In this document: in pieces, positions 24,611 through 39,724 of the stretch
How the letters are laid out: each line of letters opens with the position of its first letter
Numbering within the stretch: position 1 is the first letter of the stretch
DNA from: Polyangium mundeleinium
GTDB lineage: Bacteria; Myxococcota_A; Polyangia; Polyangiales; Polyangiaceae
Reading direction: 5' to 3'
Length of the DNA: 64,000 nt
Assembly: GCF_028369105.1 (NCBI RefSeq)
Contig: NZ_JAQNDO010000001.1
Location: 682,001 to 746,000, forward strand
Notes under the pieces: model-generated
Database searches by the model: none
The model's input: only the letters and a program-made list of their open reading frames with translations
Told to the model about the DNA's origin: nothing
Program-made: the position numbers and the translations under genes

Positions 24611-25960
24611 TCATTCCTTCCGCACCAAAAACCCCGCCACGAAATACCCATCCGTCCCCTGCACGTGTGGCAGGAGCCGGAAGCTCGTCGCCCCCTCGCC
24701 CAGAATGTCCCGCGGAAGCTCCGCCTCGATCGGCTGTTTTTCCAGCCGCACCCCCGTGCCCGACGGCTCCCCCGCGAGCCGCTCGACCACCTCCTCGGCC
24801 TCCTCCCGCAGCACGCTGCACACCGCGAAGACCAGCCGCCCCCCGTCCTTCACCCGCGTCGCCGCGTTCCGCACGATCGCAATCTGCAGTTCCGACAAAC
24901 GTTTCACGTCCTCCGCCGTCCGCCGCAGCGCGATCTCCGGCCGCCGCCGCAGCGTCCCCACGCCGGAGCACGGCGCGTCCACCAGCACCCGGTCATAATC
25001 ACGAGGCACGTCCTCGAACGCCCCCGTCCTGGCTGCCCAGTCGACCGCATATGCCGCCCGTGCTCCCCGCCCCGCCGGGCCCTCCTTCAATCGTTCGAGC
25101 TTTGCTGCATAGAGGTCCGCCGCATCGACCGCGCCCTCGGGGCCCACCTCGTCCGCGAGCAGCCACGTCTTGTTTCCTCGCCCTGCGCAGGCGTCGAGCA
25201 CCCGCTCGCCCCGCCGCGCCCCGAGCGCGAGCGCCACCACCTGCGCCCCTTCCTCCTGCACGATCCACGCGGTCCCCGCGCCCTGCAACCGCCGCACGTC
25301 TCCGGCTCCGCGCACCAGGATCGCCCGCGACGAAGCGTGCCCCTCCTCGAACGTTCCCTCCGGACAAACCTCCCGCAATCGCGTGACCCACGCCGCGCGA
25401 TCCTCCGAAAGCGCGAGCGACAAACCCAGCGGCGGCGGCACCGGCCCTGCCGCGAGATAGGCCTCCGCTGCGCTCCGCCCGAGCGACCGACGCAGCGATC
25501 CCCGGAGCCACCCCGGCGCCGACGCGCTCGCCGCCTCCAGCAGCGACGGCCGCCCCTTCGCCTCGACCTCCGCCGCGAGCTTCCGCAAAATCGCATTCGC
25601 GAACGACCCCGTCCGCACGTCCCCCTCCGCGCGGATCGCCCCGACCGCTTCGTTCACCGCGGCGAATGCCGGCACCCGATCCAGAAAGCAGATCGCATAC
25701 CCCGCCATGAGCACGTGTGCCCGCGCGATCGGCGACGGCAGGTCGAGCTTGTGTTTCGACGTCAATGCCGAAAGCCTCGCGACGAGCGCGGCTTCCGTCC
25801 GCAAAACACCATACACGAGCTCGGTCGCGAGCCCTGCGTCGCGCGGATCCATTCCGGACCGCCGCCCGAGTTCGGCGTCGAGCGCCGCGGCCGCGAACGC
25901 CTCCGCGCTCCACACCCGCGCGAGCACCCGCGCCGCGATGAGCCTTGCTTCGCTAATCAA
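24611..25960 (-). CDS. rsmB: 16S rRNA (cytosine-967 C5) methyltransferase
   Basis: 449 residues, normal for RsmB. The N-terminal NusB-like domain (RLIAARVLARV, DAGLATELVYGVLR, NAILRKLA) is joined to a SAM-dependent methyltransferase domain with LDACAGRGNKT (SAM binding), VDAPCSGVGTLRRRPE (catalytic motif with Cys) and FAVCSVLREEAEEVV (second Cys). It methylates C967 of 16S rRNA on free ribosomal RNA. The ATG overlaps the end of rseP by eight bases, so the two are cotranscribed and probably translationally coupled. It ends facing the monooxygenase gene. Confidence 0.93.
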   Translation of the reverse strand: MISEARLIAARVLARVWSAEAFAAAALDAELGRRSGMDPRDAGLATELVYGVLRTEAALVARLSALTSKHKLDLPSPIARAHVLMAGYAICFLDRVPAFAAVNEAVGAIRAEGDVRTGSFANAILRKLAAEVEAKGRPSLLEAASASAPGWLRGSLRRSLGRSAAEAYLAAGPVPPPLGLSLALSEDRAAWVTRLREVCPEGTFEEGHASSRAILVRGAGDVRRLQGAGTAWIVQEEGAQVVALALGARRGERVLDACAGRGNKTWLLADEVGPEGAVDAADLYAAKLERLKEGPAGRGARAAYAVDWAARTGAFEDVPRDYDRVLVDAPCSGVGTLRRRPEIALRRTAEDVKRLSELQIAIVRNAATRVKDGGRLVFAVCSVLREEAEEVVERLAGEPSGTGVRLEKQPIEAELPRDILGEGATSFRLLPHVQGTDGYFVAGFLVRKE

Positions 25961-27626
25961 CGAGCTCCCTCAACTGCCCTTGGATCACGTCCCACCGTCG
26001 CTCCACGTCATTCTTGAACGCCACCCCCATCAATGCAAAGAGCACGAGCAGGCCCACGAGGCTCGCGATCTCCCGCACCCGCAGCGGCAGAGGCCGCCTC
26101 GATACGGCCTCGAACAGGAAAAACAGAAGGTGACCGCCGTCGAGCACCGGGATCGGGAGCAGATTCACGAGCCCGAGGTTGATGGAAATCACGGCCATCG
26201 CCCACACGAAGTACGAGACGCCCTTCGAGCCCTCCTCGCCGACCACGTCGTAGACCGTGATGGGCCCGCCCAGCGTCGAGATGCTCACCTTGCCCTCGAC
26301 GATCCGCACGATCCCCACCACGATGAACCGGATCACGTCGTACGTCTCATCGAGCGCGCTCCTCAGCGCGAACGGCAAAAGCGACGCGTGCTCCACGTAC
26401 GCCTCCGGCACCACCGGCGACCAGTTCGACGCCCGCACGAAATACCGCGGCCGGTGCTGGCCGTATTCGTCGATCCAGTCCTCGCGCCGCAGCAGGATCG
26501 TCCCGCTCTTCTTCACCCCGCCCCGCAGCCACGTCACCATGTGCGGCCGATCCGGCGCTACGAGCAGCCGTTCGAGGAACGTCGCCCACGCCGTCACCGC
26601 CGCCTGGTCGACCTCGACGATGCGATCCCCGGGTCGCATATCGGCGTTCCATTCCGCCGAACCCTCCGCCACGTCGAATACGTACAGGTCTGCCGATTCG
26701 AGCCCCGTTCGCGACTCCAGATCGCCGTGCCCGCTCGCCTCCGGCGTCAGCGCCGCCACGCCCGACTCGTACACGGCCATGTCCGCGAGCCCGCCGAACG
26801 CGCGGGGCACCTTCACTGGCCGCAAATACGTCACCGGCACCGTCTCGCCGTGGTTCTCCGACAGCGCCGTTTCGAGGTCTGCGAACGTCTTCACCGGCCG
26901 GCCGCGCACCTCTGTCACGAGGTCGAACGTCCGGAGCCCTGCGCGGTAGGCCGGCGAATCCGGCCGCGAAATTCCCACGACGGCCGCGGGCCGACTCGGC
27001 TTGATGCCGATTTCGCCGACCTTCTCCACGATGTCGAGTGGCTTCCGGACGACCTTCTCCTCCGGCACCACCACGACTTCGACGTGCTCGTTGTTGCGAA
27101 ACACCTTGAGCCGCAGCTCTTTGCCAGGGCTCTCCCCGATGATCCGCGCGAGCTCGGCGAACGTCGAGATTCGCTCGCCGTCCACCTCGAGCACCCGATC
27201 GCCCGGCGTGAGTTTTCCCTCCGCCGGATGTCCGGGCAAAACGAAGCCGACCGTGGGGGGCGAAAAACGCGTCTCTCCCACGAAAACGGAGAAATAGAGG
27301 AGAACGGGGAACAGGATGTTCATCGCCGGGCCCGCGATGACGATGATCACCCGTTTCCAGAGCGCCTGCGCCTCGAACGTACGCTTGCGATCCTCGGGCA
27401 GCACCGGCTCCTGCCGGTTCTCCTCCAGCATCTTCACGAAGCCGCCGAGGGGCAAGAGCCCCACGCAATACTCCGTCTCTCGTCCTCGAAACCGCAGCAC
27501 CTTCGGCCCGAAACCGATCGAGAACGTGAGCACCTTCACGCCGAAGATCTTCGCCCACACGAAGTGGCCGAGCTCGTGCACGAAGATCAGCACGGAGCAG
27601 AGAAGCGCGAAGTAGAGCAGATCCAC
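25953..27626 (-). CDS. rseP: RIP metalloprotease RseP (site-2 protease family)
   Basis: 557 residues from GTG 27626. HELGH at residues 17-21 in the first membrane helix and LDGGH near 495 are the zinc-binding motifs of site-2 proteases, which cut within membranes, for example to release anti-sigma factors. Between them lie at least two PDZ-like domains (around GFVLPGHPAEGKLTPGDRVL and DVAEGSAEWNADMRPGDRIVEVD), and possibly a third, making it about 100 residues longer than E. coli RseP (about 450). Membrane helices flank both motifs. rsmB follows with an eight-base overlap. Confidence 0.93.
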   Translation of the reverse strand: MDLLYFALLCSVLIFVHELGHFVWAKIFGVKVLTFSIGFGPKVLRFRGRETEYCVGLLPLGGFVKMLEENRQEPVLPEDRKRTFEAQALWKRVIIVIAGPAMNILFPVLLYFSVFVGETRFSPPTVGFVLPGHPAEGKLTPGDRVLEVDGERISTFAELARIIGESPGKELRLKVFRNNEHVEVVVVPEEKVVRKPLDIVEKVGEIGIKPSRPAAVVGISRPDSPAYRAGLRTFDLVTEVRGRPVKTFADLETALSENHGETVPVTYLRPVKVPRAFGGLADMAVYESGVAALTPEASGHGDLESRTGLESADLYVFDVAEGSAEWNADMRPGDRIVEVDQAAVTAWATFLERLLVAPDRPHMVTWLRGGVKKSGTILLRREDWIDEYGQHRPRYFVRASNWSPVVPEAYVEHASLLPFALRSALDETYDVIRFIVVGIVRIVEGKVSISTLGGPITVYDVVGEEGSKGVSYFVWAMAVISINLGLVNLLPIPVLDGGHLLFFLFEAVSRRPLPLRVREIASLVGLLVLFALMGVAFKNDVERRWDVIQGQLRELVD

Positions 27627-32204: not shown

Positions 32205-32349
32205 GATGCGGACTCCATGGCAGGTAGAGAGGGGCGGAGCGGGCTGCCAGTCTAGGACGCATGCGCCACGCGAGGCAACCTCTTCGAGCGCCGAACCACT
32301 TGACGTTCCGGGTAAAACCCTTCATCGTCCGGCAAAGGAGGAATCCGGC
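32205..32349. promoter_or_regulatory. Divergent promoter region, permease / selenoprotein
   Basis: 145 bases between divergent starts. It contains the ribosome site of the selenoprotein gene, AAAGGAGG at 32334-32341, eight bases before its ATG and about the best match to the anti-Shine-Dalgarno in the window. No -10/-35 pair or operator is obvious. Confidence 0.45.
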
Positions 32350-32709
32350 ATGAACGAGCGAGCCGACTGGTATTATCATCGCAAGGGGTGAACCTCGTGC
32401 ACCCGAGCGCGGGAGTTTCTCGCGCAAGAAAATGTGTCGATCGTGGAAATGGCCGACGCCGGCAAGCTGAAGCTCGGCGAGGAAGCTGCGCTCACGCTCG
32501 CCCGGCAGGCCGAGCGTGTCGTTGCGGTGAAAGGAAAAAAGCGCGTCACGCTGGACATGCGCGCGTGTCCGCCCGACGCAGACGTGCTCGGGGCCCTGCT
32601 CGGGCCGACGGGCGGCTTGCGGGCCCCGACGATGCGGGTCGGACAAACGCTCGTGGTGGGGTTCGATCCCGAGGTTTACGCCGAGGTCCTCGGGCTCGGG
32701 AAGGGGTGA
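32350..32709 (+). CDS. ArsC-like thioredoxin-fold selenoprotein (UGA at codon 14 read as Sec)
   Basis: The gene starts at ATG 32350 behind AAAGGAGG. After MNERADWYYHRKG comes TGA (32389-32391), then the same frame continues TSCTRAREFLAQ to a stop at 32709, giving 119 residues, the normal size of arsenate-reductase/Spx-like proteins. With Sec the motif is U14-T-S-C17, replacing the CxxC or CxxS of that thioredoxin fold. The C-terminal part (LLGPTGGLRAPTMRVGQTLVVGF) holds the cis-Pro region (RAPT) typical of the fold. A SECIS-like hairpin lies just downstream of the UGA. I recall an annotated ArsC family (seleno)protein group with this layout. Likely a cytoplasmic thiol/selenol redox enzyme. 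The sel genes are not in the window. Confidence 0.87.
32407..32425 (+). promoter_or_regulatory. Bacterial SECIS-like hairpin
   Basis: GCGCGGG (32407-32413) pairs with CUCGCGC (32419-32425), seven pairs including one G-U, around loop AGUUU (32414-32418). The loop begins 22 bases after the UGA and has G in its first two positions, which fits the bacterial SECIS description (short stem, small apical loop with an early G, roughly 16-37 bases from UGA). It lies within the coding region, as bacterial SECIS elements do. Confidence 0.65.
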
Positions 32710-32719
32710 GCGAGAAGGG

Positions 32720-33589
32720 TCAATCCGCCAGGTTGCCCATGCCCATGCCCGCGAGCAGGTGTTTCTGCACCTCGGCGTGCGCCTTGTTCAGCCCCTCGGT
32801 CGCTGGCGCCGAGGTCGGGTCGACGACCACGCGCGCGGGGCGGCTGCCCGCGGGCGACTCGACGAGCGCGAGGACCGCGTCCGCCACGAGCTGCGGACTC
32901 GGCACGTTGTCGCCCGAGAACATCTGCTCGAAGCTCTTGCCCATCATCTCCAACGCGTTCGCGAACGGCCCGTAACCCTGGGCGCGTTCCTGCTCGCCGC
33001 CCACGGCGAGCTTCTGGCCGAATTCCGTGGGGAACGCGCCCGGCTGCACGATCGTGAGCTCGACGCCCGTCGCTTTGAGCTCATAACGATACGCCTCGCT
33101 CAGCGCTTCGAGTGCGAACTTGCTCGACCCGTAGGCGCCCATCACCGGGAAGACCAGGCGCCCGAGGGCGCTCGAGATCTGCACGACGAAGCCCTTGCCG
33201 CGCGCGCGCATCGACGGCAGCGCCGCGCGGAGCACGCGGTGCGGGCCGACCACGTTCACGTCGTATTGGCGGAGGAGATCCTCGCTCGTCAGCGTCTCTT
33301 CGAGGCCGAGCGCCGCGTATCCGGCGTTGTTCACCACGACGTCGAGGTGCCCGGCCTTCTCCAGCGCCGCGGCCACGGCTTTGTTCACGGACGCGTCGTC
33401 GGTCGCCGCCATCTCGAGCACGTGCACGCGGCCCTCGCCGGCCTTCGTGAGCTCTTCGGCGGCCGCCGCATTGCGGCCCGTGATGTCGCGCATCGTCGCG
33501 AAGACCGTGTGGCCCTTCTTCGCGAGCGTGAGCGTGATGAGGCGGCCGAAGCCGCTGTTCGTACCGGTGACGAAGACGTTCTGGCTCAT
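32720..33589 (-). CDS. Classical SDR family oxidoreductase
   Basis: 289 residues from ATG 33589, with GGGAGGAG upstream. TGTNSGFG is the NAD(P)-binding glycine motif, NNAG the structural motif, and S (ISSALG) with Y-x-x-x-K (YGSSK) the catalytic set. The long C-terminal extension and the GTNSGFG start resemble the short-chain dehydrogenases often annotated as retinol-dehydrogenase-like or YbbO-like. It ends 10 bases from the selenoprotein stop, convergent with it. Substrate unknown. Confidence 0.9.
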   Translation of the reverse strand: MSQNVFVTGTNSGFGRLITLTLAKKGHTVFATMRDITGRNAAAAEELTKAGEGRVHVLEMAATDDASVNKAVAAALEKAGHLDVVVNNAGYAALGLEETLTSEDLLRQYDVNVVGPHRVLRAALPSMRARGKGFVVQISSALGRLVFPVMGAYGSSKFALEALSEAYRYELKATGVELTIVQPGAFPTEFGQKLAVGGEQERAQGYGPFANALEMMGKSFEQMFSGDNVPSPQLVADAVLALVESPAGSRPARVVVDPTSAPATEGLNKAHAEVQKHLLAGMGMGNLAD

Positions 33590-37093: not shown

Positions 37094-38308
37094 TCAGCGA
37101 TCGGCGACAATTTGTCGGAGGATGGGCGGAAAGTCCTCGGGCTTCACGCCCTCGGTCACGAGCGGCCGACTGTTCTGCGAGTTCCAGAAGAGCACGACTT
37201 TCCCCGCGAGGCGCGTGGCGTCGTCGAGCAGAGCGGCGAGGGTTTTTCCCGTATAGGTTGGTTCGAGCGCCATGCCTTCCGTCTCCGCGGCGAGCGTGAT
37301 GGCGCGTTCTCCTTTTCGTGTCGGCGCACCATACCCGGCGCCGAGGTGGTTCGTCGAGAATCGCACACGGGCCCGGCCGAGGCGCACGTCCGGGAACGTC
37401 GGATCGAGCGAACGCGCGAAGGCCACGGTCTCCCGGGCCATCGCGAAAAACCGCGCCTCGCTCGACGTCTCGGGGCTCGACGTGCGCACGGCGACGACCT
37501 CGGTCCGGAGCCCTGACAGCTCGAGTCCGAGCGCGAGGCCAACCGCGCTGCCCATCGTGCCCATGGCGAGGTAGACACAATCGGGCAATGGGCAATGGCC
37601 GGCGCCGACCTGCTCGGCGAGTTCGAAGCCTGCATTGACGAACGCGAGGTTTCCGAGCGGCGAGGATCCGCCGGGTGGCACGAGGTATGGCGCGACGCCT
37701 TGGGCCGCCTTCGCGGCCCGCTTCGCCAGGGCCTCGGCCTCGGCGACGCCGCCCGTCACGACCCGGATCGTGGCCCCGGCGCGGCGCGCGGCGCGTAGGT
37801 TCGTCCGGACGTACGCGCTCGGCGTTTGCGGGGCGAGCAGCAGCGTGACCGCGAAGCCCTGCGCCGCGCCGTACAGGGCTGTGGCGACCGCCTGGTTCGA
37901 CCCGAAAGCGCCGAACGTGACGATCTCGCGCGCGCCTTTCGCGCGGGCATCGGCCAGGAAAAACTCGAGCTTGCGTGTCTTGCCTCCGCCATAGGCCGCG
38001 CCGGCGAGATCGTCACGTTTGACGTAGAGCCCCGCGAGCGCGGCCTTTTCGCCGAGCTTCGCGGCGCGCGCGACGGGCGTCGGCAACAGGCCGAGCGGGA
38101 GGCGCGGCAGATGCGGCGCGAGCCCGGGATGGGCGCGGAACAGGGGCGGGACGTCATCGGCGGGCGCGGGCTCGGGTGCGGCAGCGGAAGCGGGCGCAGC
38201 GGATGCGGGCGCGAACGCGGCGGCGTCCGCGGGGGTGGGTGTCCGTTCCTCACACCCGGCGAGCGTGCTGAGCGCGAGGGCCGAGAAGGTACGTCGATCG
38301 AGCTTCAT
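37094..38308 (-). CDS. PLP-dependent D-cysteine desulfhydrase / ACC deaminase family protein, apparent Tat lipoprotein
   Basis: 404 residues from ATG 38308 (CAGGGCG upstream). The N-terminus MKLDRRTFSALALSTLAGCE combines a twin-arginine motif (RRTF) with a lipobox (LAGC). An Ala/Pro linker leads to a type II-fold PLP enzyme: GGGKTRKLEFF (PLP lysine; relatives have GGNK), FGAFGSNQAVATA, and PPGGSSPLGNLAFVNAGFEL. Relatives degrade D-cysteine or 1-aminocyclopropane-1-carboxylate and are cytoplasmic, so an exported copy is unusual; the Tat route would allow export with cofactor bound. It diverges from the Rieske oxygenase genes. Substrate uncertain. Confidence 0.85.
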   Translation of the reverse strand: MKLDRRTFSALALSTLAGCEERTPTPADAAAFAPASAAPASAAAPEPAPADDVPPLFRAHPGLAPHLPRLPLGLLPTPVARAAKLGEKAALAGLYVKRDDLAGAAYGGGKTRKLEFFLADARAKGAREIVTFGAFGSNQAVATALYGAAQGFAVTLLLAPQTPSAYVRTNLRAARRAGATIRVVTGGVAEAEALAKRAAKAAQGVAPYLVPPGGSSPLGNLAFVNAGFELAEQVGAGHCPLPDCVYLAMGTMGSAVGLALGLELSGLRTEVVAVRTSSPETSSEARFFAMARETVAFARSLDPTFPDVRLGRARVRFSTNHLGAGYGAPTRKGERAITLAAETEGMALEPTYTGKTLAALLDDATRLAGKVVLFWNSQNSRPLVTEGVKPEDFPPILRQIVADR

Positions 38309-38476
38309 CCGTCGCCCTGGAACGCCCGTGATCGGGTTTTCCATTGCTGGCATGTGTTTTTCACGCAGACCGGCCTGGAGCAAGCAGGGGGGCGAGAGTC
38401 GCACAGGGGATGCGCGGACGGTCGTCTTTTCGCACTCTGCCTGGTCCCGATGTTCTCCCCGGGGATGGAGAGTCCA

Positions 38477-39724
38477 ATGACCAAGCAACCCATGCGTGTG
38501 TGGCCGGCGGAAGGCGCGAGCCGGGCTCCGTACTGGATTTACGACGACCCGGAGGTCTTCCGCGTCGAGCAGGAGCGGATCTTCGGGCAGTCCTGGTGTT
38601 ACGTGGGCCTCGCCGCGGAGGTCCCCGAACCGGGTAGCTTCCAGCGGAGCCACGTGGGCGATCGTTCCGTCATCCTGGTGCGCGACAAGGAGGGCAAGAT
38701 CAACGTCCTCGAAAACCGGTGCGCCCACCGAGGAATGGAATTTTGCCGCGCGAGCGCGGGCAAGGCCACGCGCTTCCAGTGCCCCTACCATCAATGGACG
38801 TTCGACCTCCAGGGCAACCTCTGCGGCGTGCCGTTCAAGCGGGGAATCCACGGCGAAGGCGGAATGCCGGACGATTTCGACCTCGCGGACCACCCGCTGC
38901 GTAAGCTTCGGGTGACGAACCACAACGGCGCTGTCTTCGCGTCGTATGCCGAGGAGCCCGAGCCGTTCGAGCAATACCTCGCCGAGCCGATGCGCGCCTA
39001 CTTCGATCGGGTGTTCGACGGTCGCCCCCTGCGGGTGCTCGGATACATGCGCCAGCGGATCCCCTGCAACTGGAAGCTCATCCTGGAGAACACGAAAGAC
39101 CCTTACCACGCGACCCTACTGCATTCGTTTCTCGTCACGTTTGGTCTGTTCCGCGCGGATCAAAAATCCGAAGTTCGGCTCGACGCATCCGGGCGGCATG
39201 CGGCGCTCGTCTCGCGCCACGGCGCGCGGCAGCTCACGGTGGCCGCGAGCGAGATGGCCTCGTACAAGAGCGATTACACGCTGCAAGACCGCCGGCTGCT
39301 CGACATGCAAGCAGAGTTCCGCGACGGGGTCGGGGTCGTCATGATGACCCTCTTCCCGAACCTGATTCTCCACCAGCAGGGCAATTCGCTGGCGACGCGC
39401 CACATCGTCCCGCGTGGACCCGACAGCACCGAGCTCTCGTGGACGTTCTTCGGCTACGAGGACGACGACGAGGCGCTTTCGGCGCGGCGATTGCGTCAGG
39501 CGAACCTGTTCGGCCCTGCGGGGCTGGTCTCACTCGACGACGGCGAGGCGCTGAAGGCGACGCAGGAGGGGCTTCGTAATGGCCGGGACGCGTGTGCCGT
39601 CGTCGAAATGGGCGGGCGGGATCGGGAGGACGCGAACGTCATGGTGACGGAGGTCGCGCTCCGGGCGTTCTTCCACCATTACATGCACGTGATGGGCTTC
39701 ACCAGGGCGGAGGACGAGCGATGA
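38477..39724 (+). CDS. Rieske aromatic-ring-hydroxylating dioxygenase, alpha subunit
   Basis: 415 residues from ATG 38477 with GGAG upstream; the frame is open much further upstream but without support. Rieske cluster ligands are C82-x-H84-x17-C102-x2-H105 (CAHRG, QCPYHQW). ENTKDPYHATLLHSF holds the D/H/H facial triad region for mononuclear iron. The sequence is closest in feel to the benzoate/anthranilate/terephthalate large-subunit group. The small subunit follows with an ATGA overlap. No ferredoxin or reductase gene is nearby, so electron transfer partners must be elsewhere. Substrate unknown. Confidence 0.9.
   Translation: MTKQPMRVWPAEGASRAPYWIYDDPEVFRVEQERIFGQSWCYVGLAAEVPEPGSFQRSHVGDRSVILVRDKEGKINVLENRCAHRGMEFCRASAGKATRFQCPYHQWTFDLQGNLCGVPFKRGIHGEGGMPDDFDLADHPLRKLRVTNHNGAVFASYAEEPEPFEQYLAEPMRAYFDRVFDGRPLRVLGYMRQRIPCNWKLILENTKDPYHATLLHSFLVTFGLFRADQKSEVRLDASGRHAALVSRHGARQLTVAASEMASYKSDYTLQDRRLLDMQAEFRDGVGVVMMTLFPNLILHQQGNSLATRHIVPRGPDSTELSWTFFGYEDDDEALSARRLRQANLFGPAGLVSLDDGEALKATQEGLRNGRDACAVVEMGGRDREDANVMVTEVALRAFFHHYMHVMGFTRAEDER

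Follow-up and report, generated by a model that had tools for sequence, protein, structure and literature searches.

Selenoproteins that resemble arsenate reductase appear in several catalogues. An 'ArsC-like' selenoprotein family is named in a 2006 paper (PMC1794560), the listing in PMC2398784 (2008) has an 'Arsenate reductase 2' with UxxC motif from marine metagenomes, and the listing in PMC9312934 (2022) an 'Arsenate reductase-like protein' with UxxC. In a 2026 review (PMC13188914) an entry reads 'Arsenate reductase-like protein, NF041106, UxxC', and it is likely that the three older entries are the same family as NF041106. Two other groups of small proteins are close to it. These are the Spx/MgsR/ArsC-related proteins (TIGR01617; solved structures include Spx 6gho and YffB 1rw1) and the UXX-star glutaredoxin-like selenoproteins (NF041212 and NF047338), which are families of small (seleno)proteins. 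In the library searched, no paper combines Myxococcota with selenoprotein and selenocysteine.

Here, a gene from Polyangium, a myxobacterium of the soil, is compared with these families. It lies in the middle of the stretch of 64,000 nucleotides that was analysed, called the window below, and all positions without a locus name are window positions. When its in-frame UGA is read as selenocysteine (Sec), the protein scores 122.2 bits against NCBIfam NF041106 (ArsC_rel_Se_1, 'ArsC family (seleno)protein'; curated cut-off 85). Sec stands first in the UxxC, at the position of the xxxC motif where the family has either Sec (UGA) or Cys, and no difference of importance from the family was found. Since the 2026 review already lists NF041106 with UxxC, the gene is a further member of a known family, and it is very probably a true selenoprotein. 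Our best explanation, with a probability of roughly 95%, is a selenoprotein of the NF041106 family in which the UGA is decoded as Sec14 through a hairpin and SelB, and which is predicted to be a thiol-redox protein. The proteins of TIGR01617 likely share the fold, with the redox pair after the first strand in the model, whereas the Polyangium protein has Sec for the first Cys and scores far under their cut-off. The UXX-star families, with models of 70 positions, match the first part of the protein weakly (14.4 and 13.8 bits for NF041212 and NF047338, against cut-offs of 66 and 97).

Anatomy of the gene

Direct reading gives an ATG at 32350, 13 sense codons, a TGA at 32389-32391, 105 further sense codons and a TGA stop at 32707-32709. 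The first-pass annotation had proposed a gene hidden by an in-frame UGA at this place, and its frame, coordinates, codon counts and length of 119 residues are all confirmed. With the TGA translated as Sec the protein starts MNERADWYYHRKG-U-TSC. The U-x-x-C that had been predicted is thus UTSC, residues 14-17, and the RAPT that had been pointed out is part of LRAPT. The features are as follows.

32334..32341, plus strand: Shine-Dalgarno-like AAAGGAGG, 8 nt before ATG 32350
32350..32709, plus strand: ArsC_rel_Se_1 (ArsC family selenoprotein) gene, very probably; 119 residues and TGA stop
32389..32391, plus strand: in-frame UGA (codon 14), predicted to be read as Sec14
32398..32400, plus strand: codon of Cys17, second residue of the U-x-x-C
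32407..32425, plus strand: SECIS-like hairpin, stem 32407-32413/32419-32425, loop AGUUU 32414-32418
32617..32631, plus strand: LRAPT, residues 90-94 by translation, at the place of the thioredoxin-like cis-Pro loop
30900-32204, minus strand: amino-acid permease, neighbour on the upstream side
32720-33589, minus strand: short-chain dehydrogenase, neighbour on the downstream side

AGGAGG-like motifs also precede the start in several relatives. RAP is kept in the relatives that were read, and the proline of LRAPT is presumably cis, as in the thioredoxin-like fold family. After the TGA an ORF of 91 amino acids remains, with GTG 32434 as its first start codon; this is where an ordinary gene caller had been expected to start, and the active site is indeed lost in this way. 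The case confirms that a selenoprotein gene which simple ORF calling trims to 91 residues, without the active site, can be recognised from the raw sequence. Because the family has been described (NF041106, with its entry in PMC13188914), the word hidden holds for a naive ORF caller. What the gene adds to biology is modest, a further member of a redox selenoprotein family that is uncharacterised.

Distribution and relatives

In a survey of 377 sampled genomes of the phylum at the curated cut-off of NF041106, 78 matches were found in 77 genomes, making this a common family in Myxococcota. Exactly one in-frame TGA is present in 77 of the 78 matches, and neither TAA nor TAG occurs inside any of them. 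The 78th (genome G363; 105 bits against NF041106) has Cys at the position of the UGA. Homologues that start downstream of this position and have neither Cys nor Sec there had been named as grounds for giving up the selenoprotein reading, and this outcome, UGA in 77 and Cys in one, favours it.

L056:953-1288: Cys-form gene of G363, the sole member over the cut-off without UGA, in a genome that has selA

A partial selA adjoins this Cys gene on the opposite strand (L056:1-867; 289 residues, cut off by the locus end; 289 bits). Four named Polyangium records encode a protein that is 91-97% identical and has the same UGA; the lineage of these four nearest named records is Myxococcota, Polyangiaceae. 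The UGA form is also found at L017, in a metagenome-assembled genome named Vicinamibacteraceae (100 bits).

The DNA itself was read for the 30 best of the 78 matches, that of G000 (the genome with the window) included, for G363, which makes 31, and for the four named Polyangium loci. Dropping G363 and three duplicates leaves 32 distinct sequences, the window among them. All 32 have W-aromatic/His-aromatic-x-R-x-x-UGA-x-x-Cys, a count to be read with the fact that the same motif was the search pattern, which matched 35 of 35 loci; this applies equally to Cys17, present in 32 of 32 rows located by a pattern that contains this Cys. The match at L066 (G315) was not located by the pattern. Matches below the cut-off are a mixed set: some have one TGA, most are free of stops and by score are ordinary ArsC-like proteins, and a few (G005, G350, G214) are partial. 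Those read by region are seven loci (L057-L063) and L065. The genome with the window also has a stop-free ArsC/Spx-like match at G000:C1:4118479-4118793, possibly an ordinary Cys paralogue.

Selenocysteine machinery

The first-pass annotation had named selA, selB, selC and selD as genes to look for, with absence of selB or selC speaking against a selenoprotein. All four are present in the genome with the window (13.25 Mb in 2 contigs): selA with 495 bits (cut-off 267.9), selB with 312 bits (cut-off 242.25; 649 aa), selD with 395 bits (cut-off 125) and tRNA-Sec, the product of selC, with 71.3 bits (cut-off 47). The tRNA-Sec and selB are divergent and 47 nt apart. Among 14 control genomes the same models exceeded their cut-offs in 1 (selA), 2 (selB), 2 (selD) and 5 (tRNA-Sec). 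With 5 of 14 controls passing, the tRNA-Sec model has the lowest specificity, which counts against relying on it, and for this reason ARAGORN was run as well; it gave the anticodon TCA.

Across the sampled genomes of the phylum, carriers have selA in 76 of 77 cases and the others in 165 of 300 (Fisher p 3e-16, uncorrected for kinship). The genomes with selA number 241 when strong matches are counted by hand and 238 when those over the curated cut-off are tallied automatically. The sole carrier without a selA match, G191, is a point against the association; this genome is 85% complete.

The anatomy of the gene, its conservation and the presence of the machinery support decoding of the UGA by SelB. 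SelB carrying Sec-tRNA(Sec) would bind the hairpin just past the UGA, which would then be decoded as Sec, residue 14.

Fold and probable function

The protein of 119 residues probably has a thioredoxin-like fold. An AlphaFold2 model from six sequences reached a pLDDT of 85.3 in the best of five, with the redox pair after the first strand, but the other four models had 51-68. Foldseek against solved structures gave Spx 6gho as best match (probability 1.00, E 6.6e-4); judged by its TM-score of 0.52 (rmsd 5.8), this match is weak. A sequence search of solved structures gave a glutaredoxin as best match (E 0.0042), with all others at 0.08 or weaker. The score against Pfam ArsC (PF03960) is 13.4 bits, under the gathering cut-off of 24, and that against TIGR01617 Spx/MgsR is 17.8 bits, far under the curated cut-off of 75.05. 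As both scores are under their cut-offs, the likeness to ArsC and Spx is a resemblance of fold, and membership is unproven. The 'ArsC/Spx-like thioredoxin fold' that had been proposed from the letters therefore stands as a resemblance, with Spx as the best Foldseek match, but not as an enzymatic assignment.

In the proposed mechanism, Sec14 would probably attack an oxidised substrate, such as a disulfide, and the selenyl-sulfide would then be resolved by Cys17. Such a pair would make this a small Sec/Cys thiol-redox protein, probably of the glutaredoxin/Spx/ArsC type.

Two more specific functions have to be weighed. The name of the family suggests a true ArsC that reduces arsenate, and Pfam ArsC and arsenate reductase structures are among the weak matches. 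Against this stand the Pfam ArsC score just given and the list of nine families for the protein, from which TIGR00014 arsC is absent. The two neighbours, the permease and the dehydrogenase, are both on the other strand, and in a comparison of 28 loci, within flanks of about 1.5 kb per side, no gene family adjoined more than 4. Neither the neighbours nor these short flanks, without a widely shared neighbour, give a hint of function. Arsenate reduction as the role is unsupported, and we consider it unlikely. It is equally improbable that the selenoprotein acts as a regulator of the Spx type, binding to RNA polymerase and using the U-x-x-C to sense oxidants: Spx is the best match among solved structures, but the TM-scores are weak and the TIGR01617 score of the protein falls far short. 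A general thiol-redox selenoprotein is the preferred reading over both.

Constraint on the codons before the UGA

A very different explanation would be that the UGA is a true stop, and that the ORF of 91 residues from GTG 32434 is translated separately from the upstream codons. The downstream ORF is open and does begin with a GTG. In the 32 sequences, codons -7 to -1 have a pS of 0.59 and a pN of 0.08, compared with 0.71 and 0.72 in a control upstream of the start. It is worth noting that the locating pattern fixes W at -7, Y/F/H at -6, Y/F at -5, R at -3, the UGA and Cys at +3, and therefore lowers pN at those codons. For the six Polyangium sequences the values over codons -13 to -1 are 0.128 and 0.029, against 0.565 and 0.582 in the upstream control. 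Codons +1 to +90 were left out of the pN/pS evidence, and the figures for them ignore indels. Given the amino acid constraint before the UGA, termination at the UGA with new initiation at GTG 32434 fails as an explanation. The Shine-Dalgarno-like site before ATG 32350 and the TGA kept in 77 of the 78 phylum matches over the cut-off also argue against it. The Cys form, which reads through the position, together with the constraint upstream of the UGA already contradicts a true stop, and we regard it as very improbable. Least probable of all is a sequencing error or pseudogene, in which a Cys gene would have acquired its stop by point mutation: the UGA is one base from the Cys codons, but this idea is already contradicted by the same UGA in the four other named Polyangium records and by the 78 matches, none of which contains TAA or TAG and 77 of which have a single in-frame TGA.

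The hairpin after the UGA

If the UGA is decoded as Sec, a hairpin would be expected just 3' of it. The first-pass annotation had described one of 7 pairs with an AGUUU loop, 22 bases after the UGA. The pairs (one of them G-U) and the loop are as described, but 22 nt is the distance to the start of the loop; that to the start of the stem is 15 nt. Bacterial SECIS elements have a G early in the loop, and the hairpin, with such a G and its place just 3' of the UGA, fits these rules as had been claimed. A figure legend in PMC2398784 supports the loop-G rule.

When the best stems with a G as first or second base of the loop are summed over the 32 sequences, 239 pairs are found, while 500 synonymous recodings of the same peptides gave 134.9 +/- 9.0 pairs with a maximum of 160; as the relatives are mutually dependent, this comparison is no strict probability. 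Of 500 synonymous recodings of the window sequence alone, 10 have a hairpin as good. The 73-nt stretch folds with an energy typical of its composition (z -0.32; 67 of 200 shuffles do equally well), which is a point against. The gene as such is more than a product of chance. Taken on these sequence comparisons, the case for a hairpin beyond chance is modest in the window sequence alone and strong across the relatives.

Distant lineages retain the predicted hairpin and show paired changes of bases in it, as can be seen in two alignments. Alignment A2 (5-nt loop; 10 rows, 7 of them distinct) has 100% of its cells paired, and 0 of 500 shuffles were as good on cells paired. G-C is changed to A-U in three distinct rows and to U-A in two. 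Alignment A3 (6-nt loop in a shifted register; 22 rows) has 92.9% of its cells paired, again with 0 of 500 shuffles as good, and three changes on both sides of a pair. However, 25 of 500 shuffles have at least as many pairs changed on both sides as A3. The structure slid by -2 has equally many such changes, with pairing in just 42% of its cells. Rows L038 and L041 of A3 have a truly shorter loop and several broken pairs, and L041 supplies one of the three both-side changes. The split into two registers was made after viewing the sequences, so that the counts for A2 and A3 lean towards it; the control with synonymous codons searches all registers and is independent of the split. A single register for all rows was also tried and pairs poorly in most.

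The Rfam model SECIS_1 gave no match around the gene or across the genome, which is a point against the hairpin. Because it was silent in all 14 control genomes too, this was not taken as absence.

Divergent UGA-bearing groups in relatives

Among the matches under the NF041106 cut-off are two groups with an in-frame UGA in a UxxC motif, called here FYGRAUTGC and LYLKKTUTSC, and these are the least-described part of the finding. At even odds, the ArsC-like selenoproteins of Myxococcota comprise at least three groups with UGA and AGUU hairpin, two of them maybe undescribed, with a change from Sec to Cys in G363 despite its selA. The AGUU-loop hairpins of the two smaller groups were seen by eye only.

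A model built from four FYGRAUTGC genomes found the group in 6 of 183 genomes of the window's order at E below 1e-50, two of them new, and all with one TGA. The three members that were scanned have 60-69 bits against NF041106. For LYLKKTUTSC, which is Spx-like, a model built from three genomes found 20 of 240 genomes of the window's class at E below 1e-37. At least one TGA is in the match in 17 of these 20 and none in three; among the 17, three have two TGA and four have a TAG too, possibly a gene end inside the match. The LYLKKTUTSC protein at L061 has 59.6 bits against Spx/MgsR, under the cut-off of 75.05, and 43.2 bits against Pfam ArsC, over the cut-off of 24. Set apart by their family scores, both groups may be undescribed selenoprotein subfamilies, and could then join the selenoprotein catalogue.

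L057:1056-1391: FYGR(A/I)UTGC protein
L058:1061-1399: FYGR(A/I)UTGC protein
L059:689-1030: FYGR(A/I)UTGC protein
L060:770-1096: FYGR(A/I)UTGC protein
L061:1058-1399: LYLK(K/S)TUTSC protein
L062:1015-1353: LYLK(K/S)TUTSC protein
L063:1012-1365: LYLK(K/S)TUTSC protein

At L057-L060 the in-frame UGA is followed by a hairpin-like stretch GAGUUUCUCGC, and at L061-L063, where the proteins are Spx/ArsC-like, by a stretch GCGAGGAGUUCCUUGCGC.

Other genes in the window

Two other genes were seen in passing. On the minus strand, 25953-27626 encodes an RseP-type site-2 metalloprotease of 557 aa (295 bits against TIGR00054). On the plus strand, the ORF at 37826-39724 has a CxH...CxxH spacing by eye, and its real start is probably inside the ORF; going by this motif, we take the protein to resemble a Rieske oxygenase alpha subunit.
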